Source of the DNA: Arthrobacter woluwensis
GTDB lineage: Bacteria; Actinomycetota; Actinomycetes; Actinomycetales; Micrococcaceae
Reading direction: 5' to 3'
DNA length: 64,000 nt
Assembly (NCBI RefSeq): GCF_030816155.1
Contig: NZ_JAUSXR010000001.1
Coordinates: 2,046,001 to 2,110,000, forward strand
Made by a program: the position numbers and the translations under genes. How positions within the stretch are numbered: the first letter of the stretch is position 1; every line of letters begins with the position of its first letter. This document shows positions 41,149 through 48,396 of the stretch, one piece after another. A model generated the notes under the pieces. That model was not told the origin of the DNA and did not search any database. It saw only the letters and a program-made list of their open reading frames with translations.

Positions 41149-42852
41149 CTAGCCGCAGTACGCGCCCGTGGACGCCGAATTGACCAGCTTGGCGTACTTG
41201 GAGAGGACGCCCGTGGTGAAGCGCGCCGGCAGAGGCGCCCAGCCCACCTTGCGGGCCGCGAGCTCGTCCTCGTCCACCAGGAGATCGAAGGACCGGGCCG
41301 CGATGTCCACCCGGATCCGGTCGCCGTCCTGGACGAAGGCGATGGGCCCGCCGTCGACGGCTTCCGGCGCGACGTGTCCGATGCAGAGCCCGGTGGTGCC
41401 GCCGGAGAAGCGCCCGTCCGTCAGCAGCAGGACGTCCTTGCCGAGGCCCGCGCCCTTGATCGCGCCGGTGATGGCGAGCATCTCGCGCATGCCCGGGCCG
41501 CCCTTGGGGCCCTCGTAGCGGATGACGACGACGTCGCCCTTCTGGATCTCGCCGCGGTCCAGCGCGTCGAGGGCGCCCTGCTCCCGCTCGAAGACGCGGG
41601 CCGTGCCTTCGAAGATGTCGGCGTCGAAGCCCGCGGTCTTGACCACGGCGCCCTCCGGGGCGAGCGATCCGTGCAGGATGGTGATGCCGCCGGTCTTGTG
41701 GATCGGATTGTCGAGAGCCCGCAGGATCTTGCCGTCCACATCCGGCGGGTTGATCGCCTCGAGGTTCTCGGTCACGGTGCGACCGGTGACGGTGAGGCAG
41801 TCGCCGTGGAGGAGGCCGGCGTCGAGCAGCGCCCGCATGATGACCGGGACGCCGCCGATGCGGTCGACGTCGGTCATCACGTAGCGGCCGAACGGTTTGA
41901 GGTCGCCCAGGTGCGGCACCTTGTCGCCGATGCGGTTGAAGTCGTCGAGGACGAGGTCGACGCCGGCCTCCCGCGCGATCGCGAGAAGGTGCAGCACCGC
42001 GTTGGTCGAGCCGCCGAAGGCCATGGTGACGGCGATGGCGTTCTCGAACGCGGGCTTGGTCATGATGTCCCGCGCCGTGATGCCCAGCCGCAGCAGGTTG
42101 ACCACGGCTTCACCGGAGCGCCGCGCGAAGTCGTCACGACGCCGGTCGGCCGAGGGCGGCGCGGCGGAGCCGGGCAGGGACATCCCGAGTGCTTCGCCGA
42201 TGCACGCCATGGTGTTCGCCGTGTACATGCCGCCGCATGCACCCTCCCCCGGACAGATCGCGCGCTCAATGCGGTCCAGGTCTCCCCTGCTCATCCGGCC
42301 CGCGGCGCAGGCGCCCACCGCTTCGAAGGCGTCGATGAGGGTGACTTCCTTCTCGGAGCCGTCCTCCAGACGGACCCAACCGGGCATGATCGAACCCGCG
42401 TAGAGGAAGACGCTCGCGAGATCCAGGCGCGCGGCGGCCATCAGCATTCCGGGGAGGGACTTGTCGCAGCCCGCGAGGAGCACCGAGCCGTCGATCCGCT
42501 CGGCCTGCATCACGGTCTCCACCGAATCCGCGATCACCTCGCGGGAGACGAGCGAGAAGTGCATGCCGTCGTGACCCATGGAGATCCCGTCTGAGACGGA
42601 GATCGTGCCGAACTGCATCGGGAACCCGCCTCCGGCGTGCACGCCCTCCTTCACCGCCAGCGCGAGGCGATTGAGCGACAGATTGCACGGGGTGATCTCA
42701 TTCCACGAACTCGCGACGCCGATCTGCGGCTTCGCGAAGTCCTCATCGCCCATGCCCACGGCGCGGAACATGCCGCGCGCCGGAGCCGCGTGGATGCCGT
42801 CCGTCACCACCCGGGAACGCGGCTTGATGTCTGGAGTGGGTTCTGCGGTCAT
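41149..42852 (-). CDS. ilvD: Dihydroxy-acid dehydratase (Fe-S)
   Basis: Third step of valine and isoleucine synthesis: dehydrates the dihydroxy acids to keto acids. The 567-residue protein has cluster cysteines in [27 protein letters not shown] and [16 protein letters not shown], and the C-terminal [25 protein letters not shown] lies five bases before the ATG at 42852. The frame is open almost 100 codons upstream but that part has no family resemblance. It is transcribed separately from ilvBNC. A half-site CCTCACA lies about 70 bases upstream; it is too weak to call. Confidence 0.96.
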
Positions 42853-43139
42853 GGCATCCTCCGTCGCTCGGGAGCCAGGGCCCAGCAAGCAAGGCCCGGC
42901 ACGTTGCGGCCAGTCTATGACGTGCCTCACAGAATGGCACCGGACGAGTTGCTGGCGGTCTGATTGCGACAGCGCCCGGCATCCACTCCCCCGGAAAACC
43001 GGGGCAGAAGGACCTGCGGGACCGCTCCGAGGCGCCCCGGAGGCCTCGATTTCACTTTTGCGGAAAACTCCAGTAGAGTTCTTACTCGTTGCGGGGAACG
43101 CAGACGGGAAGAAAAGCCCGCCTGAGAAGCCACAACGAT

Positions 43140-43215
43140 GCACCTCTAGCTCAACTGGCAGAGCAATTGACTCTTAATCAATGGGTTCCGGGTTCGAGTC
43201 CCGGGGGGTGCACCA
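43140..43215 (+). tRNA. tRNA-Lys (CTT anticodon), CCA encoded
   Basis: Acceptor GCACCTC with GGGGTGC (one G-T pair), anticodon stem ATTGA/TCAAT around CTCTTAA (anticodon CTT, reads AAG), T-arm CCGGGTTCGAGTCCCGG, then A and an encoded CCA. A possible promoter is TTCACT (43051-43056), 17 bases, TAGAGT (43074-43079). The core from the anticodon arm to the T-loop (43163-43196) recurs inverted at 46858-46891. Confidence 0.97.
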
Positions 43216-43218
43216 ACG

Positions 43219-43265
43219 AGTCCCGCTCGATCTGCTGAAAAGCAAGATCGGGCGGGACTTTTTTG
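43219..43265 (+). terminator. Rho-independent terminator after tRNA-Lys
   Basis: A 15-base stem with one mismatch (43219-43233 with 43245-43259) and a T-run from 43259. It starts 4 bases after the tRNA CCA end. Confidence 0.85.
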
Positions 43266-43845
43266 TGTCGCGCATCGTCGCATCTCTTAGATGCTGCGGG
43301 AAGACCGTGCGCCCGCGTTTCAGCGCCATGCGACCTGCCTCAGCACGACTCCATTCCTTGACGCGGACGCCCGGGCAATCATGTCTCGTGTGGGCACCAT
43401 GGACAGGACCTCCAGGCCCCCTGCTCAATGGGACGTGCTAGCCGGCGACCGCCATGAGGAACCACGGCCACCCGAACCAGCACATGCACGCCTCCGTCGA
43501 ATGCACCCGCCGGGCTGAACTCGGCGCAGAACCGCCACACACCCGCTTGGCGCGGTCGGCACCCGCTTCGTAGAGGTCGGGCTCTGGGCGCAGATCGCGC
43601 GCTCACCCATCCCGACTTCTGGTTCCCCCACAAGGTCGGGCTGCCCCCAGAACGTTCAAACGCGCCCCGCCGCTTCGCCAGTTTCGGGCAGGCCGTATGA
43701 ACAGGCCCTAATTATTCTCAAATCGGTGTAGAAAATACCCCCTAGGCGCGACAGCAACTGTCACGTCGCGTCGGCTAGCGTGAAAAATGGCCAGTACGAT
43801 CGGTCAAAAATTTCCAAGTCAACAAGCAGTTCAGGGGAGAACTAA
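43266..43845. other. Non-coding or degenerate stretch upstream of the secreted-protein gene
   Basis: About 580 bases with no convincing gene: the short open frames on both strands have no ribosome binding sites or recognisable sequence. The right part is AT-rich (ATTATTCTCAAATCGG) and holds a palindrome GACAG-CAA-CTGTC at 43750-43762, about 80 bases before the next gene, which could be an operator. Confidence 0.4.
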
Positions 43846-44742
43846 ATGTCAGCACTGAAGAAGTTACTGACGGGCGCGGCAGCCGCATTCGTCGTCGCAA
43901 CATCGTTGGGAGTCGCCGGACCGGCGAACGCCGCCGAGGCGAACCACCACAAGGATCCGCTCGCCGTGGTCCAGCAGCAGGGCCTCATCGGTTCACCTGC
44001 CGCCAAGGCGCAGAACGAGATCGCCGCACGAAACCTGGCGGCCAAGCCCGCGAGCGAGTCGAAGGTCGCCCCCGTGAACCTCACGGCCTCCGTACCCGGC
44101 ACTACCGCCACCGTCGAGAACGGCGCCAAGGTCAACCGCGCCCGCGGAAACGACTACGGAACCGTCGTCGGCACCGGCCCGAACGGCACCAAAGCCGGAT
44201 ACGTGGTGATCAACACCCCCACGGCTCCGAGCGAGTACAAGTTCATCGTCGGAGACGCCAACACCAAACTGAGCCTCAACAAGAACGGCTCCGTCACCGT
44301 CAAGAACGCCGCCGGCGAGCAGGTGAACAACATCCTGCCGCCGTGGGCGAGTGACGCCACAGGGAAGTCCCTCCCCACCTCGTACACGGTGGCAGGTAAC
44401 ACGCTCCTTCAGAAGGTCGATCACCGTGGCGCGGCGTACCCGGTCGTGGCAGACCCAGAGTTCGGGTGCGGCGTCCCGTGGTGCTCGATCTACTTCGACA
44501 GGGGCGAGACCGCGGCTATCGCCTCCGGAGGTTCACTCGGGCGACAGTACATCTCTGCGGCCTGCCAAGCAGCTCCTGGCCCTGCTGCAATCGCCTGTCG
44601 GCTCGCAACGGCGTATGTGACGATTACCGCTGGCGTTGCAACGGCCCAGCAGAAGTGTGTCGGAATTATCGGCTACCCAATCCCACTTCCGCCATACGCT
44701 TCGTGGAACACGTTCGTCTACAGTGGAAGTCAATGCCACTAG
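43846..44742 (+). CDS. Secreted protein with six-cysteine C-terminal domain (possible bacteriocin or toxin)
   Basis: A 298-residue exported protein. Residues 1-30 form a Sec signal peptide (KKLLTGAAAAFVVATSLGVA, then ANA cleavage). Residues 31-165 are a low-hydrophobicity prodomain-like region. A segment WASDATGKSLPTSYTVAGN, then VDHRGAAYPVVADPE (167-205), separates it from a compact C-terminus. All six cysteines lie there (208, 213, 240, 251, 271, 297), which would allow three disulfides, with YFDRGETAAIASGG at 216-229 and a hydrophobic stretch about 244-268. From memory, actinobacterial secreted proteins of unknown role share this layout. GGGGAG precedes the ATG by 7 bases. A small membrane protein follows after 15 bases. 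Antimicrobial activity is a hypothesis. Confidence 0.75.
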   Translation: MSALKKLLTGAAAAFVVATSLGVAGPANAAEANHHKDPLAVVQQQGLIGSPAAKAQNEIAARNLAAKPASESKVAPVNLTASVPGTTATVENGAKVNRARGNDYGTVVGTGPNGTKAGYVVINTPTAPSEYKFIVGDANTKLSLNKNGSVTVKNAAGEQVNNILPPWASDATGKSLPTSYTVAGNTLLQKVDHRGAAYPVVADPEFGCGVPWCSIYFDRGETAAIASGGSLGRQYISAACQAAPGPAAIACRLATAYVTITAGVATAQQKCVGIIGYPIPLPPYASWNTFVYSGSQCH

Positions 44743-44757
44743 TTGGGAGGCGAAGTC

Positions 44758-44970
44758 GTGAAGAAGGAGAATTTCCTCAAGATTCTGAAAGTCGTCATGG
44801 CGTTGATCGCGACATCCTTCGTGGGCTGGCTCGCCGGCCCACTCCTGCTCCACCCAACGGTTGAGAGCTGGTTCTACATCGCACTTATTGCGGCTGGTGG
44901 ACACATCATCTACGTGGAGGGCACGAGGATGATTTTGTACTTCGCCAATAAGGAATGGCTCCGAAATTGA
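44758..44970 (+). CDS. Small two-helix membrane protein (possible immunity protein)
   Basis: A 70-residue protein with two membrane segments: about residues 8-30 (ILKVVMALIATSFVGWLAGP) and 37-62. The start is a GTG at 44758 with GGGAGG 7 bases upstream; a TTG five codons earlier overlaps that site. It begins 15 bases after the secreted-protein gene in the same direction and ends just before a terminator. Two-gene units of a secreted peptide and a tiny membrane protein often encode a bacteriocin and its immunity protein, but no homology is claimed. Confidence 0.7.
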   Translation: MKKENFLKILKVVMALIATSFVGWLAGPLLLHPTVESWFYIALIAAGGHIIYVEGTRMILYFANKEWLRN

Positions 44971-45015
44971 TGAGTTTCCCATCGGGTAGGTTGTGGCGTT
45001 ATAGGTCGCGCCACA

Positions 45016-45054
45016 AAGAGGCCCGGGTCGGCGGTTTGTCGGCCCGGGCCTCTT
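45016..45054 (+). terminator. Terminator after the secreted-protein unit
   Basis: A 12-base-pair perfect stem (45016-45027 with 45043-45054) 46 bases past the small membrane gene. It closes a two-gene transcript. Confidence 0.75.
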
Positions 45055-45189
45055 GCGTGCCACGGCCAGTCGATTCAAAATCTGCGGTGAGGCCGCAGCG
45101 CGGCCACCGACGTATTCCACCACACCGCCCAGCAGCCCTCGCCCCCGAGCACCCTTCCCGGGTGCCATTTCATGCCCGAAAGCCTGACC

Positions 45190-45294
45190 ATGCCCACCCT
45201 GTTCCTCTTCCCACCGCCGCTCTGCGGACAGTGCAAACACCCCACCCACCTGAACAGGAGCTGCGTGCGGGCATGCACAACCTGCCGGCTCTGA
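45190..45294 (+). CDS. Possible small cysteine-rich (zinc-ribbon-like) peptide
   Basis: A 34-codon frame reading MPTLFLFPPPLCGQCKHPTH, then LNRSCVRACTTCRL. The pattern CxxC, then CxxxCxxC, suggests a zinc-binding fold. The ribosome binding site is weak and no neighbour supports it, so it may be a remnant of a mobile element gene. Confidence 0.3.
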   Translation: MPTLFLFPPPLCGQCKHPTHLNRSCVRACTTCRL

Positions 45295-45341
45295 TGGCCC
45301 TTCACCGACCAACCCGTTTACACAGCACAAGGACAAAGGAC

Positions 45342-45446
45342 ATGAACTCCGCACTGTTCCCCGGCTTGGAGCCGGAGGACCCCAAAACCGCGGCGCCGCC
45401 GGACCAGCGGACTGTCAACTACGAGACCATCCACGGCGAGCACTAG
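45342..45446 (+). pseudogene. Possible broken small gene interrupted by TAG
   Basis: Opens MNSALFPGLEPEDPKTAAPP after an AAGGACAAAGGAC sequence, a plausible ribosome binding site. After 34 codons a TAG ends it, yet the same frame continues IDATAIGTYTCGHAV with protein-like composition. It may be a truncated gene from a mobile element. The product is not recognised. Confidence 0.3.
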
Positions 45447-45500
45447 ATCGACGCAACCGCCATCGGGACCTACACCTGCGGCCATGCCGTGTTGCTCTTC

Positions 45501-45953
45501 TCACCCCGCGTGCGCACGCACCAGGTCCGCCTCTTTGACCAGCACGCCGTTCTCCGCGCTCGTCAGGCCGTACAGCATCGCCCCCGGGGCGGCGTCGGCG
45601 GCGAGCGCCTCCACCTCGTCCCACAACGGCCGGCACGTGTGGCAGCCCCCGTGCGCGAGATAGTCCGCCGGGACCCAGAAGGACACGAACGGGTCATCGG
45701 CGAAGCGGACCTTCAGCAGGACGCCTGCCGTGTATGGCGACGACGCGGAGAACTGGCCCAGGAACTCCACCTCAGGGCTCATGCCCCGGTCCATGGCGGT
45801 CCGGTGCCCGAGCCGAGCGAACGGGAGGTACACCGCTCCCCCGGACAAGATGTGGTCGACGACGGCCAGCGCTTCCGAGCTGAGCCCGTCGCGATGGTCC
45901 CCCGTGAGACGAAGCGTCGCCGGCAGACGGTCGATGAAGGAGAGGGTGCTCAC
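45501..45953 (-). CDS. Hypothetical protein
   Basis: A 150-residue soluble protein, not recognised. The start is taken as the GTG at 45953, with AGAAGG nine bases upstream (VSTLSFIDRLPATLRL); an ATG at 45986 is possible. Visible features are DPFVSFWVPADYLAHGGC and HTCRP (two Cys and two His close together, residues about 105-115, a possible metal site). It is the last of three minus-strand genes of the island. Confidence 0.6.
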   Translation of the reverse strand: MSTLSFIDRLPATLRLTGDHRDGLSSEALAVVDHILSGGAVYLPFARLGHRTAMDRGMSPEVEFLGQFSASSPYTAGVLLKVRFADDPFVSFWVPADYLAHGGCHTCRPLWDEVEALAADAAPGAMLYGLTSAENGVLVKEADLVRAHAG

Positions 45954-46041
45954 GGTGTGCCGCCTTCTGGTGTGTTCCGGATCCATATGCAACGATTCGG
46001 AGCCACACGCGGGAACGGATTGGAGCCGCCCGGCCCCCGCG

Positions 46042-46242
46042 CTACTTCCGGGCGGACCCCCGCGGCGGCGGTTCACGACGGTCGCGCCACAGCCATCCCG
46101 CGATGACCACGACGGCCATCACTGAGCTCGCCGTCACCAGCCCGATCTTCCACCCCGGGCTGTGGTCCGACAGAGCGTTGCTCACCGCCAGGAAGATGAA
46201 CAGTGAACCTTGCCAGCAAGCGGCCTTCTTGCAGTAGCTCAT
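46042..46242 (-). CDS. Small membrane protein, unknown
   Basis: A 66-residue protein with a weak hydrophobic segment (about 13-22) and a strong one (about 33-52, GLVTASSVMAVVVIAGWLW), then a basic tail RDRREPPPRG. AGGAG lies four bases before the ATG. It starts 13 bases after the neighbouring hypothetical gene, so the two are probably co-transcribed. Confidence 0.6.
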   Translation of the reverse strand: MSYCKKAACWQGSLFIFLAVSNALSDHSPGWKIGLVTASSVMAVVVIAGWLWRDRREPPPRGSARK

Positions 46243-46255
46243 CGCGCTCCTCTCG

Positions 46256-46684
46256 TCAGCCTCGGCCGACGGTATCGAAGGGTTCCGCTCCGGTCGGCCC
46301 AGGCTTCACGACGGCGAAACGCAGGTGGACGTCTGCGGTTTCAAGGGTCAGAGTGTCCTCCAGTGACAGCGACGGCATCAGAGGAAAGGCGATGTCCTCC
46401 ATACCCGCAAAGGGCCCGTCGCTGAACCCGGCTGATTGCAGAGGACTCAGCCGGTTGCCCGATTCATCGGACAGGTTCACTCCGTCCGCCAGGAGGCTCC
46501 GCCGTGTGAGACGCACACCTCTGGGCGTGTCCACGTATTCCTGCCGTTCGTCGTCGACGCGCAGACGCACCAGGAGATACCCCTCCACGATTTCCACGGT
46601 CTGCACCTCGAATCCCGGGCTCGAACCTTCCAGCGTTTCCGTCCTCAGCAGCACAGCGGTCTCCCCCTGACCTTCCGGCCGCAC
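46256..46684 (-). CDS. Hypothetical protein, start uncertain
   Basis: A soluble protein of about 142 residues, counted from an in-frame GTG at 46684; the frame is open to 46825. Segments such as VQTVEIVEGYLLVRLRVDDE and FPLMPSLSLEDTLTLETADV look like a real beta-rich protein. No ribosome binding site marks a start, and the upstream end lies near the tRNA fragment, so the 5' end may be truncated. The product is not recognised. Confidence 0.5.
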   Translation of the reverse strand: MRPEGQGETAVLLRTETLEGSSPGFEVQTVEIVEGYLLVRLRVDDERQEYVDTPRGVRLTRRSLLADGVNLSDESGNRLSPLQSAGFSDGPFAGMEDIAFPLMPSLSLEDTLTLETADVHLRFAVVKPGPTGAEPFDTVGRG

Positions 46685-46857
46685 GCGTCGTAGAGTGTGG
46701 CCATTTCGTCGCGTCGTGGGCACAGCCGCCGGGCGGCGTCGTACACACGGCGCGAAGTTCGATTCAAACCGTCCTCCGATCCAAGCACGCCCCTGAGACA
46801 AGCGATAGTCGCAAGGAAAGGCCACCTAAAGCGAGTAGCGCCGACCGCCGTCCATTG

Positions 46858-46891
46858 CGAACCCGTAACCCATTGATTAAGAGTCAATTGC
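46858..46891 (-). repeat. Inverted tRNA-Lys core fragment (possible attachment-site scar)
   Basis: On the minus strand 33 of 34 bases match tRNA-Lys 43163-43196: the anticodon arm, variable loop and T-stem to the T-loop, with A for C at one position. Similarity ends sharply on the T-loop side and fades on the other (GGCA-CC for GGCA-GA). No acceptor stem can form, so it is not a working tRNA. Integrase attachment cores commonly cover this part of a tRNA. Confidence 0.85.
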
Positions 46892-47016
46892 GGTGCCGCA
46901 ATGTGTGCCGGTGCACTCGGGATGCGCGTTCACGCAGGCACGTGCAACGATCTGTGGGAGAGGCACGGTTCCCGACGGACGCCTCCTGAGCGACGACACC
47001 CGAGAAGGAACCCCGC

Positions 47017-48270
47017 ATGAGTGAGACCCCTGCGCTGGCACGCCGTCTCGGCACCCTCGACGCCGTGCTGATCGGGCTCGGGTCCATGATCGGCGCCGGA
47101 GTGTTCGCGGCCTTCACCCCGGCGGCTGCGGCGGCCGGGTCGGGGCCGCTCATCGGACTGCTGGTGGCCGCGTTCGTGGCCTTCTGCAATGCGAGCTCCT
47201 CGGCGCAGCTCGCCGCGGCGTATCCGGCCTCGGGCGGCAGCTACCTCTACGGCAGGGAGAGGATCGGTCCGTGGGCCGGATTCCTGGCCGGCTGGGGGTT
47301 CGTGATCGGTAAGACCGCGAGCGCCGCCGCCATGGCCATGACGTTCGCCGCGTATGTCGCGCCGCCCGGCTGGGAACGCCCGGTGGCCATCCTGGCGGTG
47401 ATCGCGCTCGCCGCGGTGAACTACCGCGGCATCACCCGGACCGCTCGGCTGACCCGCATCCTCATGGTCCTGGTCCTGGCCGCGCTGACCATCATCGTCG
47501 CCGCCTGCTGGGCGGGATCCTCCCCCGATCTGGGCAAGGTCGCCGGAGAAGGTCTCCTGGCGCACGGCTGGTACGGCATTCTGCAGTCCGCAGGGCTGCT
47601 GTTCTTCGCGTTCGCCGGGTACGCCCGCATCGCGACCCTGAGCGAGGAGGTCCGCGAACCCCGGCGGACCATCCCCCGTGCCATCCTCATCGCCCTGGCC
47701 GTGACCGCCGTCGTGTACGCGACGGTGGCCGTCACGCTGCTCGCCACGCTCGGACCGTCCGGCGTCGCCGCGGAACCAGCACCGCTCGCCGCTGCCGTCG
47801 CGTCGGGAAACGCTGCCTGGGCGACGCCGGTCGTGCGCGCCGGAGCGGCGGTCGCCGCGCTCGGGGCTCTGCTCGCCCTCATCGCCGGTCTCGGAAGGAC
47901 GAGTCTGGCGATGGCCCGCGAACACGACCTGCCCCACTGGCTCGCGGCCGTGCACCCCCGGTACCGGGTGCCGCACCGGGCCGAGGTGACGGTCGCCGTC
48001 GCGATCTGCGGGATCATCGCGGTGGCAGATCTCCAGGGAGCCATCGGCTTCTCGTCCTTCGGCGTGCTGATCTATTACCTCGTGGCCAACCTCGCCGCAT
48101 TCACCCAAGTGGGCGCGGACCGCCGGTATCCGCGCGTGTTCCAGGTCCTCGGCGCGCTGGCCTGCGTCGGACTGGCCGCGACCCTGCCCCTGCCGTCCGT
48201 GGTCGCCGGGGCGGCGGTGTTCGCCGTCGGCGTCATCGTGCGCTGGATCCGCATCGCCAGGACCTCTTGA
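47017..48270 (+). CDS. APC-family amino acid permease
   Basis: A 417-residue membrane transporter with about twelve hydrophobic segments. The first has the APC signature LGSMIGAGVFAAFTPAAAAA; SGGSYLYGRERIGPWAGFLAGW and FFAFAGYARIATLSEEVREP follow, all typical of the amino acid/polyamine/cation family. GAAGGA precedes the ATG. It stands alone next to the island boundary. The substrate cannot be read from the sequence. Confidence 0.9.
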   Translation: MSETPALARRLGTLDAVLIGLGSMIGAGVFAAFTPAAAAAGSGPLIGLLVAAFVAFCNASSSAQLAAAYPASGGSYLYGRERIGPWAGFLAGWGFVIGKTASAAAMAMTFAAYVAPPGWERPVAILAVIALAAVNYRGITRTARLTRILMVLVLAALTIIVAACWAGSSPDLGKVAGEGLLAHGWYGILQSAGLLFFAFAGYARIATLSEEVREPRRTIPRAILIALAVTAVVYATVAVTLLATLGPSGVAAEPAPLAAAVASGNAAWATPVVRAGAAVAALGALLALIAGLGRTSLAMAREHDLPHWLAAVHPRYRVPHRAEVTVAVAICGIIAVADLQGAIGFSSFGVLIYYLVANLAAFTQVGADRRYPRVFQVLGALACVGLAATLPLPSVVAGAAVFAVGVIVRWIRIARTS

Positions 48271-48396
48271 AACCGCCTGCCCGCGGCATCAGTCTGATTA
48301 GGGCGCCCCTGGCCCGGACTATAGGCTGAAAGACACCGACGGCCCCGCGCAGCCGGCGCCGTCGTCCCCCGGATCACCGCTTCAAGGAGGAGACTC

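Follow-up and report, generated by a model that had tools for sequence, protein, structure and literature searches.

A candidate pro-bacteriocin and membrane immunity pair of Arthrobacter woluwensis, read as one allele of a polymorphic family on a closticin-type N-terminal domain

Closticin 574 of Clostridium tyrobutyricum is reported to be made as a 309-residue preprotein with a probable 27-residue signal peptide, which is processed, most probably outside the cell, to a C-terminal bacteriocin of 82 residues (PMC10888436). The same source describes a closticin-like gene, the predicted mature part of which was amplified from a proline codon (primer ATG-CCA-GAT-TGG...) and which had no activity against two indicators. 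Placing that proline at a DP motif is our own step; so placed, it would fit a cut between Asp and Pro. Polymorphic toxin systems are a second point of reference. They have a conserved N-terminal export region, exchangeable C-terminal modules and a downstream immunity gene (Zhang et al. 2012, PMC3482391), and the main text of that paper names none of DUF2599, DUF4258, DUF2283, DUF1963 or closticin. The T7SS LXG pairs TspA/TsaI (PMC7456083) and EsxX/ExiCD (PMC12744356) are described as combining a membrane-depolarising C-terminal domain with a membrane-bound immunity protein, and the CDI ionophore toxins as having polymorphic ionophore domains and highly diverged cognate immunity proteins (PMC11630599). 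Membrane immunity is not a rule, as the membrane toxin TelE is reported to be neutralised by a protein without transmembrane (TM) helices (PMC10434224).

The locus considered here lies in a 64,000-nucleotide stretch of the genome of the soil bacterium Arthrobacter woluwensis, hereafter the window. Like closticin 574, the window protein has a signal peptide, a long prodomain and a C-terminal domain, that of closticin being freed after secretion. Unlike the closticin type, its C-terminal module, unrelated by profile, holds six cysteines. The polymorphic toxin systems resemble the window family in all three of the traits given above; however, no dedicated secretion apparatus is implied for the latter. 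The LXG pairs are alike in the mechanism that we propose but not in their LXG/T7SS export, and are regarded as analogues, with no sequence relation claimed. The CDI toxins differ in their Gram-negative CdiA delivery and five-helix bundles. A paper describing the present toxin family was not found in the literature searched, which misses most subscription journals.

The initial annotation described a 298-residue exported protein with a prodomain-like region, six cysteines in its last 91 residues and a hydrophobic stretch at residues 244–268. The reading frame opens with ATG and has the length claimed, a signal peptide is visible by eye, and the cysteines are residues 208, 213, 240, 251, 271 and 297 (Table 1). 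The prodomain-like region is common to a protein of phage BN12 annotated as the bacteriocin closticin. The C-terminal stretch is indeed hydrophobic, but only moderately so: the best 19-residue Kyte-Doolittle mean is 1.47, at about residues 247–265, against the usual 1.6. Searches of Pfam, NCBIfam, PHROGs and PADLOC gave no match above cut-off for this protein or for its 70-residue neighbour. The same genome has a second toxin copy (G000:C1:664803), 51% identical to the window protein and followed, at a gap of 41 nt, by a small membrane ORF of 81 residues.

The neighbour was described as a two-helix membrane protein 15 bases on. A GTG start does lie 15 nt past the toxin stop, and the first helix is clear (1.98), the second weaker (1.40). 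The protein is present in 2 of 295 genomes of the family, namely the two that carry this toxin type. A large protein set yielded three close homologues, one of which shares its strain name with the toxin homologue P0003. The terminator said to close the unit stands as a strong 17-bp stem, the fold energy of which is reached by 0 of 200 shuffles, but it has no T-run and is not among the calls of a consensus terminator scan.

The pair had also been placed inside an island, which agrees with its setting: it adjoins a tRNA-Lys gene in a variable spot, where the sister genome G003 has other DNA between conserved flanks. That is, G003 keeps the flanks (95% and 89%) and has 1.42 kb of different sequence in place of the interval, including a gene for a TM2-domain protein of 141 residues beside tRNA-Lys (L219, 3246–3671; Pfam E 2e-18). 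The cassette (44449–44970) has 57.7% GC and the window 68.5%; only 2 of 635 segments of 500 bp are that low in GC, and both are the cassette's own. Further along the window, 40 bp of the tRNA-Lys gene recur in inverted form at 46858–46897 on the minus strand (92.5% identity); the sister genome G002 has this piece too.

Table 1. Features of the locus, in window coordinates.
Feature	Position	Strand	Remarks
tRNA-Lys(CTT) bordering the variable spot	43140..43215	+	ARAGORN
Interval differing in sister genome G003; contains the cassette	43268..45499	.	blastn of window 42000-48300 against L219
Ribosome-binding-site-like GGGGAG, toxin gene	43834..43839	+	by eye
Pro-bacteriocin / polymorphic toxin gene	43846..44742	+	298 aa, predicted role
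Signal peptide, residues 1-29	43846..43932	+	KK n-region, hydrophobic core, AxA site 27-29; by eye
Conserved beta-sandwich 'VADP' N-domain (closticin-type prodomain), residues 79-204	44080..44457	+	AF2 model; HMM in 182 genes
Asp203-Pro204, end of N-domain	44452-44457	+	
C-terminal 'NRxET' module with six Cys, variable, residues 205-298; released bacteriocin domain (predicted)	44458..44739	+	
Ribosome-binding-site-like GGGAGG, immunity gene	44745..44750	+	by eye
Membrane protein of 70 aa with two helices, GTG start; cognate immunity protein (predicted)	44758..44970	+	
Strong stem-loop, probable terminator without T-run	45016..45054	+	RNA fold -49.5 kcal/mol, z -6.0

An alignment of 17 homologues displays a conserved N-terminal region ending PWAxDA...GAAYPVVADP and then a variable C-terminus, of about 95 residues in the window toxin. 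Profile search finds the N-domain in at least 57 of 295 genomes of the family, at least 73 of 396 of the order and at least 44 of 394 of the class; these sets overlap, and the counts are lower bounds because scoring was limited to the few best candidates of each genome. Within the genus, two of four genomes have a match. The matches fetched gave 141 distinct N-domain genes, those left out being mainly weak ones, and the addition of named records brought the set to 182. HMM matches stopping before model position 195 were left out before counting, genes with identical last 150 residues were collapsed, and loci with under 400 or 600 bases downstream were omitted in two analyses, the partner counts below using 600. 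The Asp-Pro dipeptide stands at the junction of N-domain and C-terminus in 181 of the 182 genes, a count that leans towards the motif because the HMM itself terminates in VADP; it is suggestive of cleavage at this point. N-domain relatives also occur on 14 plasmids among the matches listed, including Curtobacterium pCPAA3 (NRxET type, L172). One of the listed plasmid proteins, from Rhodococcus, is labelled 'TNT domain-containing' and two are labelled 'DUF4258 domain-containing', with Clavibacter among the DUF4258 carriers.

The shared N-domain carries unrelated C-terminal modules: the six-Cys NRxET module of the window, DUF2599, DUF4258, EndoU-like, HNH-like and others. Profile-profile comparison with hhalign gives a probability below 1% between the NRxET, closticin-type and DUF2599-type modules (0.2% for NRxET against closticin-type), while two halves of the NRxET set, the positive control, give 99.6%. 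Known domains of nuclease type are recognised as follows. EndoU_bacteria is above the Pfam cut-off in one of three genes (26.1 against 25.3 bits), the others scoring 21.9 and 21.7, and DUF4258, which we take to be toxin-like, is above it in four of five. The HNH-like modules have an EWHHIV ('WHH') motif by eye, and none of the four scanned has a Pfam nuclease match. DUF2599, of unknown function, is the C-terminal module in L021, L012 and 40 cluster-1 genes. Four loci (L098, L099, L107 and L143) have a C-terminal module of just 48 residues and then, in every case, a charged, helical-looking ORF of 93–104 residues; possibly, these are a short bacteriocin and a soluble immunity protein.

By iterated profile, 78 of the 182 genes are of the NRxET type. 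The 77 modules counted have six cysteines in 35 cases, four in 31, two in 10 and three in one. Thus, the number is even in 76 of 77, and in 62 of 63 without the 14 near-alike Streptosporangiales-type modules, as expected for disulfides. The cysteines are the most conserved residues of the module, and the N-domain has 0.03 Cys per gene. AlphaFold2 models the module alone (97 residues) as strand-strand, two pairs of short helices and again strand-strand, with a mean pLDDT of 86.5. An enzyme or adhesin fold had been named beforehand as evidence against a toxin; the C-terminal model has no such match, nor any other, at E<=0.001 by Foldseek in PDB or BFVD, which leaves a known fold still possible. 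The best hydrophobic segment reaches 1.6 in 30 of the 77 modules and stays below this TM threshold in 47, the window module among them; at such modest values, pore formation is not established. The module is also found on other carriers. One NRxET module (L229) directly follows a signal peptide, without an N-domain, and has a 68-residue membrane ORF 15 nt on; another (L232) follows a PG_binding_1 domain, also without a closticin-type N-domain, with no partner seen. L230 and L235 have decayed-looking toxin copies, by eye, with the membrane ORF still downstream, as orphan immunity genes would.

Phage relatives tie the N-domain to closticin. The Paenibacillus phage BN12 protein annotated 'putative closticin' has the same N-domain (HMM E 5e-28 in a search of two sequences) and aligns with P0001 at 36% over 105 residues (BLASTP, E 5e-14). 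After VADP come 82 more residues, and a membrane ORF of 120 residues lies downstream. The N-domain therefore looks like a closticin 574-type prodomain, the sequence comparison having been made through this phage protein rather than closticin 574 itself. Closticin-type C-termini are found among the actinobacterial genes as well, in L109 (E 1.5e-5) and L105 (E 1.5e-4). Microbacterium phage Min1 encodes the N-domain with an NRxET C-terminus (profile E 6e-18), and a 61-residue membrane ORF comes 7 nt after. Both phage-borne pairs (BN12, L239 2375–3411; Min1, L240 1710–2766) lie near annotated holin genes.

If the 70-residue protein is an immunity protein, a comparable neighbour should accompany the homologues, and its general absence had been named in advance as evidence against the pairing. 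A partner was scored when a small ORF with at least one hydrophobic helix started between -30 and +100 nt of the toxin stop. Such an ORF follows 58 of 69 genes of the hydrophobic types and 9 of 262 control ORFs (Fisher p 2e-43). It is also found behind 33 of 40 DUF2599 types and 11 of 31 other types, and on the upstream side, other strand, in 6 of 129. The controls are the longest non-overlapping ORFs of the window and of another 20 stretches of 20 kb, not curated genes, and encode any protein, not just secreted ones. A count under other settings gives 57 of 69 for the hydrophobic types. Looser settings give 58 of 69 and 34 of 40 for the two main groups and 26 of 262 and 10 of 129 for the controls; with a ribosome site required, the four numbers are 43 of 69, 24 of 40, 4 of 262 and 1 of 129. 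Other C-terminal types have other neighbours: DUF2283 proteins behind five of five DUF4258 types, DUF1963 proteins behind four of four HNH-like types and, next to the three EndoU types, ORFs of 177–191 residues without a TM call. At five DUF2599 loci (L015, L026, L027, L130 and L137), the one-TM partner has an outside domain or a lipoprotein-like start, a hint of a toxin that acts outside the membrane.

Comparison of pairs makes evident that the type of partner gene goes with the C-terminus and not with the N-domain. Among 111 partner pairs, partner similarity correlates with that of the C-termini (r 0.48, and 0.41 as a partial correlation controlling for the N-domain), the partial correlation with N-domain similarity being 0.06, and 0 of 500 permutations reach the C-terminal value. 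With near-identical gene pairs removed, the partial correlations are 0.27 for the C-terminus and -0.03 for the N-domain. The counts and this tracking support the earlier proposal of a toxin with its immunity protein.

A conserved membrane neighbour holds for most of the hydrophobic types, but not for the Streptosporangiales-type NRxET genes (Nonomuraea, Planobispora and Bailinhaonella; order checked), where it is present in 0 of 14. A further 12 of the 64 other NRxET genes lack a small TM partner at the threshold used. Among these 12, L185 has a weakly hydrophobic 65-residue ORF at +15 that the threshold missed, and L167, a relative of P0010, has no candidate partner visible. The partnerless loci of Nonomuraea and related records are L181–L184, L186–L188, L190, L192–L194, L197 and L205, and L187 has two genes in tandem. 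These genes are perhaps domesticated.

Pairs of proteins indicate that modules have been swapped, since near-identical N-domains are found with different C-termini, and vice versa. P0002 and P0005 are 97% alike in the N-domain and 68% in the C-terminus; P0001 and P0002 are 100% alike in the C-terminus and 92% in the N-domain, and P0003 and P0005 are 99% and 90% alike, respectively. The DNA of the window genome (G000) and G002 presents the same picture. Identity is 86.8% in the upstream intergenic region and 91.9% in the N-domain; it is 99.0% in the C-terminal part, 98.6% in the immunity gene, 100% over 44971–45100 and 97.5% over 45101–45500. The high-identity tract thus starts just before the VADP junction and extends past the terminator, a pattern that a recent exchange would leave. 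We infer the G000/G002 exchange with reserve, because the N-domain difference is concentrated in 44280–44399, where identity is lowest (75–82%), and because the tract passes the terminator. The protein mosaics and the DNA comparison are not independent, since the allele of P0002 and that of the G002 gene may be almost identical.

To summarize, the family has the features by which polymorphic toxins are recognised: a conserved N-terminal region with unrelated C-terminal modules, known toxin domains, a downstream gene that co-varies with the C-terminus, and C-terminal exchange. At the level of sequence, comparison establishes the modular toxin architecture, the cognate partner and the exchange of modules; toxicity, immunity and membrane action of the window pair are what we infer. 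The reading that we consider probable is that the window gene encodes a Sec-exported pro-bacteriocin that is cut near Asp-Pro to release a disulfide-bonded, probably membrane-active domain, that the 70-residue protein is its immunity protein, and that the pair represents a single allele within a large family of polymorphic toxins. The toxin would be exported via Sec and, on the model of closticin 574 with its reported processing outside the cell, cut at or beside Asp203-Pro204. Once released, the domain of about 95 residues, held by disulfides, would act on the cytoplasmic membrane of related bacteria, and the 70-residue protein would shield the producer by binding either the toxin or the toxin's target in the membrane.

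The nearest alternative keeps the polymorphic toxin and its immunity protein and replaces pore formation by a block or modification of an envelope target, such as a membrane protein or lipid II, which the small membrane protein would shield. We think this rather unlikely. The hydrophobicity of most modules, which stays below the TM threshold, the helices that AlphaFold2 sets between beta strands and the membrane partners of DUF2599 modules, some of them one-TM with an outside domain, all argue for it; against it, no enzyme-like fold was matched, and it is cysteines, not a catalytic-looking set, that are best conserved in the module. A housekeeping role, in which a secreted or surface protein would have a membrane helper (anchor or chaperone) and be no weapon, seems improbable. 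The Streptosporangiales-type relatives, among them many Nonomuraea records, do have similar modules and no partner, as a domesticated protein would, but the patchy presence of the family, the swapping of C-termini, the occurrence on this N-domain of nuclease-type modules paired with fitting soluble partners and the low-GC cassette in a variable spot all speak against this.

We give hardly any credence to a toxin-antitoxin or phage-defence module acting inside the producer. The DUF4258/DUF2283 types presumably resemble toxin-antitoxin pairs, which counts in its favour, and a paper naming both domains was not found in the literature searched. An export signal and even, conserved cysteines do not suit a module of this sort, and PADLOC matched none of the five proteins scanned.

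A broader reading is also possible, though we lean slightly against it: Gram-positive bacteria and their phages would share a large, hitherto unrecognised polymorphic toxin system that depends on Sec and uses the closticin-type prodomain as its carrier. Such a system would use no secretion machine and would release its toxins at the invariant Asp-Pro, perhaps by self-catalysis; NRxET and closticin-type modules, as membrane-active bacteriocins, would each come with a matching immunity gene, as would the uncharacterised DUF2599 module and the nuclease-type modules. If this is true, the question is raised of how Sec-exported nuclease-type modules enter target cells without a machine. Closticin 574, a little-studied precursor, would then be the part seen so far of a modular family of weapons across Actinobacteria. 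Many 'hypothetical' secreted proteins, and DUF2599, would gain a testable role, and a set of antibacterial domains, held by disulfides and supplied with their own immunity controls, would come into view.
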